Assembly: GCA_947631325.1 (NCBI GenBank)
Contig: CANRKX010000005.1
Span: 1-52,983, forward strand
Reading direction: 5' to 3'
Origin: an uncultured Clostridia bacterium
GTDB taxonomy: Bacteria; Bacillota; Clostridia; Christensenellales; Borkfalkiaceae
Length of the DNA: 52,983 nt
The notes beneath the pieces are model-generated. The model did not search any database. It saw nothing but the letters and a program-made list of their open reading frames with translations, and had not been told where the DNA came from. The position numbers and the translations under genes are program-made. Positions 49,608-51,081 of the stretch are shown piece by piece. Each line of letters begins with the position of its first letter. The first letter of the stretch is position 1.

Positions 49608-49636
49608 AACCCGCCGCGGGTAGAACCGCGGCGGGC
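49608..49636 (-). terminator. Intrinsic terminator downstream of lgt
   Basis: CCCGCCGCGG gttcta CCGCGGCGGG-type stem (minus strand) followed by TTTTG. Confidence 0.65.
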
Positions 49637-49638
49637 TG

Positions 49639-50406: not shown

Positions 50407-50762
50407 TACGCCGCGTCCTTCTGTACGCAGAAGGAGAGTATTCCGCCGACGGCAAACAGGATAAACGCAATTATCATAGCCCATTGCCAATACATGAGTA
50501 CGCAGACAACTATGCCCATGACCACGGCGATAAGCTGAAGCACGCCGCCGACCTTGGGCTTGCTGAAATCGAGTATAGCCCCTATGAGCCCCACTATTCC
50601 GCCGCCCAGCCCGAGGACGTAAGCCGCCCACGTATAGTCGACCGCGCCGTTAGACGAAGCGGAGACCACTTCCGCGCACAGCGCAAGCCCCAAGCCGCCG
50701 ATTATCGCAAATACAGCGCCGATTATTCCGAGCACCGCACCGGGAATTGACTTCTTTTTCAT
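50406..50762 (-). CDS. Small membrane protein (DUF4064-like), overlapping the lgt start by 1 nt
   Basis: MKKKSIPGAVLGIIGAVFAIIGGLGLALCAEVV...GLGGGIVGLIGAILDFSKPKVGGVLQLIAVVMGI; RBS aaaggaggt. Confidence 0.8.
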   Translation of the reverse strand: MKKKSIPGAVLGIIGAVFAIIGGLGLALCAEVVSASSNGAVDYTWAAYVLGLGGGIVGLIGAILDFSKPKVGGVLQLIAVVMGIVVCVLMYWQWAMIIAFILFAVGGILSFCVQKDAA

Positions 50763-50812
50763 CCGTATAACCTCCTTTGAAACCATGTATAGGTCTTTGG
50801 CTTCCGCAAATT

Positions 50813-50841
50813 ATTATAGGTGAGAAATCTTCACCTGTCAA
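50813..50841 (-). promoter_or_regulatory. Consensus sigma-A promoter with dyad operator as the entire 17-nt spacer
   Basis: Minus strand TTGACA GGTGAAGATTTCTCACC TATAAT: -35 50841-50836, operator 50835-50819, -10 50818-50813. Confidence 0.85.
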
Positions 50842-50848
50842 GTATTTA

Positions 50849-50863
50849 GGTGAGATTTCTCAT
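50849..50863 (+). promoter_or_regulatory. Second operator-like half/dyad (GGTGAGATTTCTCAT) next to the XRE gene -10 (TATACT)
   Basis: TGAGA tt TCTCA dyad sharing GATTTCTCA with the first operator; TATACT 50863-50868. Confidence 0.65.
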
Positions 50864-50877
50864 ATACTTTTTGTACT

Positions 50878-51081
50878 ATGATTATTGCACAGAGAATTAA
50901 GGAATTGAGAAAGGCAGGCGGAATAAGCCAAAAGAAGCTTGCGGAAGCCGTGGGCGTGGACAAGCGCGCCGTCATCTTCTGGGAGCAGGAAATCAACGAG
51001 CCCAAGGCGACGTATATAAGGAATATGGCGCAGTTTTTCGGGTGCTCGGCAGACTATCTCTTGGGGTTGACGGATATCTGA
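50878..51081 (+). CDS. XRE family helix-turn-helix transcriptional regulator
   Basis: MIIAQRIKELRKAGGISQKKLAEAVGVDKRAVIFWEQEINEPKATYIRNMAQFFGCSADYLLGLTDI. Confidence 0.92.
   Translation: MIIAQRIKELRKAGGISQKKLAEAVGVDKRAVIFWEQEINEPKATYIRNMAQFFGCSADYLLGLTDI

Follow-up and report, generated by a model that had tools for sequence, protein, structure and literature searches.

The question raised by this locus is whether a consensus promoter, the spacer of which is itself a dyad, is held by the small XRE-family protein encoded divergently from it, and which lgt gene would then come under its control. The window analysed here is a stretch of 52,983 nucleotides from an uncultured Clostridia bacterium of the family Borkfalkiaceae (assembly GCA_947631325.1, contig CANRKX010000005.1), the genome of which is referred to as G000.

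Promoters and candidate operators of the divergent locus

The intergenic region carries two promoters and two candidate operators, A and B (Table 1). In agreement with the sequence-only reading, the minus strand presents perfect -35 and -10 boxes between which the dyad forms the whole spacer. The complete 29-mer occurs once, with zero matches in shuffled sequence; the dyad GGTGA-N7-TCACC is unique across the 1.46-Mb genome and is imperfect inside its arms. The related site described as touching the -10 box of the XRE gene has also been found: the 12-bp core of operator B, TGAGA-TT-TCTCA (50851-50862), abuts TATACT, and the centres of A and B lie about 29.5 bp apart. The half-site spacing differs by one base, being TGA-N7-TCA in A and TGA-N6-TCA in B.

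Table 1. Coordinates of the divergent locus in the window and of the other dyad-spacer XRE systems of the same genome
Feature	Position	Strand	Basis or remark
Intrinsic terminator after lgt2, 12-bp stem	49608..49637	-	Sequence; strong
Accessory lgt (lgt2), 255 aa, P0003	49639..50406	-	PF01790, E 4e-33, 115 bits
DUF4064-like membrane protein, 118 aa, P0002	50406..50762	-	PF13273, E 2.5e-6, below the curated cut-off
Shine-Dalgarno sequence AAGGAGG of the DUF4064-like gene	50771..50777	-	Conserved in 6/6 genomes
DUF4064-lgt promoter, 29-mer TTGACA-GGTGAAGATTTCTCACC-TATAAT	50841-50813	-	Sequence
-10 box TATAAT of the DUF4064-lgt promoter	50813..50818	-	Invariant, 6/6 genomes
Candidate operator A, GGTGAAGATTTCTCACC, filling the 17-nt spacer	50819..50835	-	Consensus RGTGAAGWWWTCTCACC in 6 genomes
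-35 box TTGACA of the DUF4064-lgt promoter	50836..50841	-	Identical in 5/6 orthologous loci; TTGATA in G505
Candidate operator B, GGTGAGATTTCTCAT, overlapping or abutting the XRE -10	50849..50863	+	14-16/16 identical, 6 genomes
-10 box TATACT of the XRE promoter	50863..50868	+	9 nt before the XRE ATG (50878)
XRE-family putative repressor, 67 aa, P0001, single HTH_3	50878..51081	+	Pfam HTH_3, orthologs, fold
Dyad-spacer XRE system L139	C38:3475		
Dyad-spacer XRE system L140	C22:18970		
Dyad-spacer XRE system L172	C34:11588		
Dyad-spacer XRE system L141	C34, ~2.2 kb		
Dyad-spacer XRE system L173	C57:5838		
Dyad-spacer XRE system L175	C11:39520		
Dyad-spacer XRE system L174	C7:1		

Six orthologous loci from two families were compared: those of G000, G505, G507, G508 (L002) and G510 (L003), and that of G091 from the other family. 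The consensus sequences over these loci are RGTGAAGWWWTCTCACC for site A (13-16 of 17 positions identical) and RGTGAGWWWTCTCAT for site B, with nearly invariant arms and an A/T centre that varies freely in both. Since the adjacent gene is saturated at its four-fold degenerate sites, with just 28-52% pairwise identity, the retention of A and B indicates strong selection on both, and such selected sites would most simply be binding sites. Operator conservation among relatives with DUF4064-lgt, proposed earlier as a check, is seen at both sites in all six genomes. The pattern GTGA-N0/1-GWWWTCTCA recovers the A and B pair at the module locus in six of six module genomes, with one extra match elsewhere among them (in G510) and between none and two scattered matches in each of 12 module-less relatives. 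A third operator-like match in the window genome (C11:16898) was rejected as a chance occurrence; it lies in AT-rich intergenic sequence without a TTGACA/TATAAT frame.

The promoter of the XRE gene is of a different kind, with a good -10 box and no recognisable -35 element on inspection of the sequence. Its mRNA leader is predicted to be about 3 nt long, i.e. the transcript would be leaderless. Leaders of 0-3 nt are predicted in five of the six genomes, with TATACT, TATAAT or TATTAT lying 6-9 nt before the ATG; the exception is G510, in which an insertion with a Shine-Dalgarno sequence precedes the XRE gene in place of the near-leaderless start. A -35-less promoter of this type is what would be expected if the XRE protein also, or mainly, activated its own transcription from site A, repression of the operon being a by-product; controller proteins and lambda CI (at PRM) activate their own promoters in such a way. 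However, site B is positioned immediately 5' of this -10 box and would be expected to block it; the centre of A, at about -48 relative to the XRE start, is more distant than the classical -42; and activation of the operon itself would be superfluous at a perfect promoter. Self-activation is accordingly considered unlikely, though it deserves to be kept in mind.

The XRE protein and the bicistron in front of it

The XRE protein matches HTH_3 (PF01381, E 6e-14) with 52.2 bits at a curated cut-off of 23, and its orthologs, 84-94% identical, occupy the same position in five other genomes. Its AlphaFold model (pLDDT 87.6) has a five-helix, lambda-repressor-like fold, which compares to 3jxb with a TM of about 0.83 at 1.3 Å and finds matches in P22 C2, SinR and ImmR; P22 C2 and SinR have been solved with operator DNA. 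The nearest solved relatives are the repressors P22 C2 and ICEBs1 ImmR, and the best NCBIfam matches are weak, RstR/DicA-like and below cut-off, as might be expected if the locus derived from, or were related to, a phage immunity region or a toxin-antitoxin pair and were not an envelope-gene switch. The surroundings of the gene speak against such an origin: (i) the neighbours are ion-transporter-like, MATE-like and lgt genes, in the same order in L003; (ii) the membrane protein remained unmatched in 50,697 phage records; (iii) viral contigs gave just two partial XRE relatives; and (iv) DUF4064-like/lgt2 is a recurrent operon and not a toxin pair. This origin is thus regarded as improbable. The window genome encodes 11 other XRE-like proteins, and the protein that binds the operators may be one of these.

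The promoter was said to fire into a DUF4064-like small membrane protein. A membrane protein gene does lie downstream, starting at the ATG at 50762 behind AAGGAGG and not at the upstream ATG at 50786, and its product is 74-91% identical in the closest relatives; the domain itself scores 28.1 bits against a PF13273 cut-off of 32.1, so that only the name DUF4064-like is kept. The overlap of its stop codon with the start of lgt2 is exactly 1 nt, as had been read from the sequence (TAATG, 50408-50404), and the same junction is found in G507, G508 and G510, with TAATTG in G505 and TAAATG in G091. A second internal lgt promoter, the search for which had been suggested, did not emerge, no promoter-like site being found on the minus strand inside the bicistron. 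Together with the 1-nt coupling and the terminator behind lgt2, this supports joint control of lgt and the membrane protein gene. The Rfam scan of the neighbourhood gave one tRNA and no other RNA family.

The description of this lgt as an otherwise housekeeping gene was not upheld. A second LGT gene is present in the window genome (C13:20393-21169), and at least two are carried by module genomes (C5 and C13 in G000), whereas the eight module-less genomes of the same genus in which lgt was counted have one each and a ninth, G024, one gene matched in two pieces. In the lgt tree, the universal copies fall outside the module clade (support 98/88); the C13 gene clusters with the lgt that module-less relatives carry as their only copy, and the window gene stands in a separate accessory clade. 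By this phylogeny the window lgt is assigned as an accessory copy, not the universal one. In G505 the module lgt appears to be in two pieces (L110, G505:C8:18957-19660), owing to a frameshift or an assembly error, and it is possibly a decaying accessory copy.

Lgt2 retains the equivalents of E. coli R143, R239, E243 and R246, by which, together with the LGT Pfam domain, family membership was judged. The E. coli-type signature of H103 and N146/E151 is absent from Lgt2 and the other type-1 module Lgts, which carry H103Y, N146C and E151C. Mutants of E. coli Lgt at H103, including H103Y, failed complementation (PMC4728403); Firmicutes Lgt proteins naturally have Y at H103, and in distant Lgt proteins position 146 is occupied by C and position 151 by C or D (PMC13251419). 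Of 40 universal Lgt sequences from the order, 39 have C where E. coli has N146 and E151, and most have I, Y or L in place of H103. The PDB search with Lgt2 as a single sequence gave no match, and that with the Lgt alignment (A2) found E. coli Lgt 5azb. Lgt2 is described as an LGT-family protein and a putative diacylglyceryl transferase; LspA is present in the genome, which indicates that a lipoprotein pathway exists. MSMEG_5408 of M. smegmatis is likewise an additional Lgt with N146C, and its activity is presumed to be low (PMC13251419). In contrast to MSMEG_5408, Lgt2 appears to have a repressor dedicated to it, and C is found at 146 and 151 in the other lgt of module genomes as well. The literature searched, the coverage of which was incomplete, contained no report of a second lgt under XRE control.

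Recurrence of the spacer dyad in relatives and across the genome

DUF4064-like proteins were searched in the order, family and class, and the DUF4064-like/lgt operon proved to be recurrent, though confined to a minority of the genomes. One clade (type 2) has as its divergent regulator an XRE of about 100 aa that is clearly different (LAMEAMLTQSTLNNLY); here the candidate operator, AACTCAAATGAGTT, again occupies the 17-nt spacer of a TTGACA/TATAAT promoter, extending one base into the -10. The dyad is kept in the spacer at 13 of the 14 loci with this unrelated XRE. Both arms have changed together at L055, from AACTC/GAGTT to AACCC/GGGTT. The exception is L065 (G580:C10), which keeps the type-2 XRE but has a degraded spacer-operator promoter; further downstream, ahead of a zinc-ribbon fusion, stands a new TTGACA-18-TATAAT that has no dyad. 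The two regulator types correspond to different clades within one accessory lgt group. No comparable dyad was present in the four DUF4064-lgt promoters without an adjacent XRE that were inspected. At L058, L062, L066, L067 and L068 a DUF4064-like protein with a long N-terminal extension precedes lgt, and no XRE gene is adjacent.

The spacer is exactly 17 nt long at all six type-1 loci and nearly all type-2 loci, and the hexamers are perfect or near-perfect, so no realignment of the promoter elements is needed. This bears on a MerR-like mode of action, in which a protein bound between the -35 and -10, where the operator indeed lies, would activate the operon through DNA distortion. MerR promoters have spacers of 19-20 nt, and the protein encoded here belongs to HTH_3 and not to MerR; neither the regulator nor the 17-nt spacers of the six type-1 loci are of the MerR kind, and this mode is held to be very improbable.

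The window spacer by itself is weak ground for an argument. Arms of at least 5 occur in 2.6% of its shuffled versions (p 0.026), and at a shuffle p of about 0.03 the sequence of one spacer is insufficient for a regulatory claim; taken alone, it would leave room for dyads being chance features of strong promoters, with no specific regulator. The genome-wide survey argues against this. A total of 48 perfect TTGACA-N17-TATAAT promoters were identified in the window genome, and 190 when up to one mismatch was allowed, as compared to 6 for a reversed control. Spacer dyads with arms of at least 6 are found in six of the 48, against a shuffle mean of 0.47 (none of 500 shuffles was as high), and there is no excess of spacer dyads among the listed one-mismatch promoters. 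With arms of at least 5 the number is seven, the window included, and all seven promoters are divergent from a small HTH gene, compared to two of the remaining 41 (Fisher 4.9e-7); the HTH model was partly built from these same proteins, earlier found by homology, and the genes were confirmed with Pfam HTH models. In view of this complete association, and of the conservation of both sites at saturated divergence, the chance explanation is hardly credible.

The operators differ between the systems, among them TAGACAAATATTGTCTA, TTAGGCATTGCCTAA, TTACCATTTTGGTAA, TAGGTCAAAAGACCTA and AGGCACATTGTGCCT. A second operator copy, 29-30 bp upstream from centre to centre, is present in five systems: the window, C11, C38, C57 and that at about 2.2 kb of C34. 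The copy in the window, which is the conserved site B, reaches a p of 0.06 by ungapped matching, a weak value explained by the one inserted base by which A and B differ. No good second copy at this distance was found for C7, C22, C34:11588 and C32. The systems of Table 1 outside the window have perfect or near-perfect promoters, each with an operator of its own, and several have lipoprotein targets. A further perfect promoter stands beside another XRE at G000:C6:23298 (L134), with the spacer AATGAAGTAATACCTCA, a second copy 43 bp upstream and a lipoprotein target.

Lipobox lipoproteins make up four of the eight readable targets, whereas the other perfect promoters give one in 35 (p 0.003, from a post hoc comparison of small numbers). 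The remaining targets include zinc-ribbon proteins, a hemolysin III-like membrane protein (named from its sequence) and DUF4064-lgt2. Two genomes of the same genus that lack the type-1 module were examined over 393 kb, and none of their spacers reached the strict arm threshold of 6 bp. Four promoters, perfect or near-perfect, were XRE-linked in this sequence, two having 5-bp and two 4-bp spacer dyads, and two of the four drive lipoprotein-like genes. For these two genomes the spacer-dyad rule receives qualitative support only.

Proposed mechanism and its place among known switches

The most probable reading, in which we have considerable confidence, is that the XRE protein represses DUF4064-like/lgt2 from site A and itself from site B. 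Presumably as a dimer, it would bind the two copies of the GTGA...TCAC operator. At A, in the spacer of a maximal-strength sigma-A promoter, it would exclude RNA polymerase and keep DUF4064-like/lgt2 off, while at B, adjoining the -10 box of the weak promoter of the XRE gene, it would limit its own level. Upon a fall in its level or activity, the very strong promoter would fire and the DUF4064-like protein and the accessory Lgt would be made together. Since the protein has no sensor domain, proteolysis, an antirepressor or dilution is the most likely means of release. The identity of the bound protein as this XRE, its action as a repressor and not an activator, its autoregulation and the leaderless start of its mRNA are inferred. 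The compact, autoregulated divergent switch that had been predicted is strongly supported by recurrence and by the conserved operators on both promoters, A between the -35 and -10 and B abutting the XRE -10 in six genomes; the binding remains a prediction.

By analogy, a dyad in the spacer of a perfect 17-nt promoter would act as a classical steric block. In the tetO-type arrangement, which is likewise divergent, the repressor site is located in the -35/-10 region of a strong promoter. The window repressor is of a different family, and each XRE of this genome appears to have its own operator, with the layout repeated across the genome. The small HTH_3 fold, dyad operators on divergent promoters and, as predicted here, autoregulation are shared with P22 C2, 434 and lambda CI-Cro and with ICEBs1 ImmR, and the repressor mRNA from lambda PRM is leaderless. 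In contrast to these phage and ICE repressors, the window XRE lacks a C-terminal domain for dimerisation or cleavage, neither phage nor ICE genes were seen next to it, its target is an envelope bicistron, and its operators occur essentially at this locus only. The controller proteins of restriction-modification systems (C.AhdI) are also tiny single-domain XRE proteins and match in fold; such systems show autoregulation and leaderless transcripts. The locus differs from them in lacking restriction-modification genes and in a perfect consensus target promoter that appears to be repressed, not activated. CylR2, the Enterococcus cytolysin repressor, is a 66-aa single-domain XRE that represses a divergent operon. 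It matches the window XRE in fold, whereas the window has no CylR1-like partner and differs in operator and target.

The single locus is well supported as an ordinary kind of switch, of a mechanism already known in kind. The fixed geometry found across the genome comprises a perfect promoter, an operator in the 17-nt spacer, a second operator 29-30 bp upstream and a tiny divergent XRE. A tentative extension, which we consider possible but doubtful, is that independent XRE switches of this geometry each lock one envelope gene, often a lipoprotein and in one case an accessory Lgt, and together would allow surface lipoproteins and their lipidation to be switched on and off in different combinations.

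In the window genome, a gene behind a perfect promoter with a spacer dyad is probably kept silent by its own neighbouring mini-repressor, and by this rule silent envelope genes of uncultured Clostridia, together with their operators, may be predicted from sequence alone. An accessory gene for lipoprotein lipidation would have a switch of its own, for which two clades use XRE repressors unrelated to each other. It is the repeated use of one fixed geometry on envelope genes that constitutes the part of interest and is worth following.
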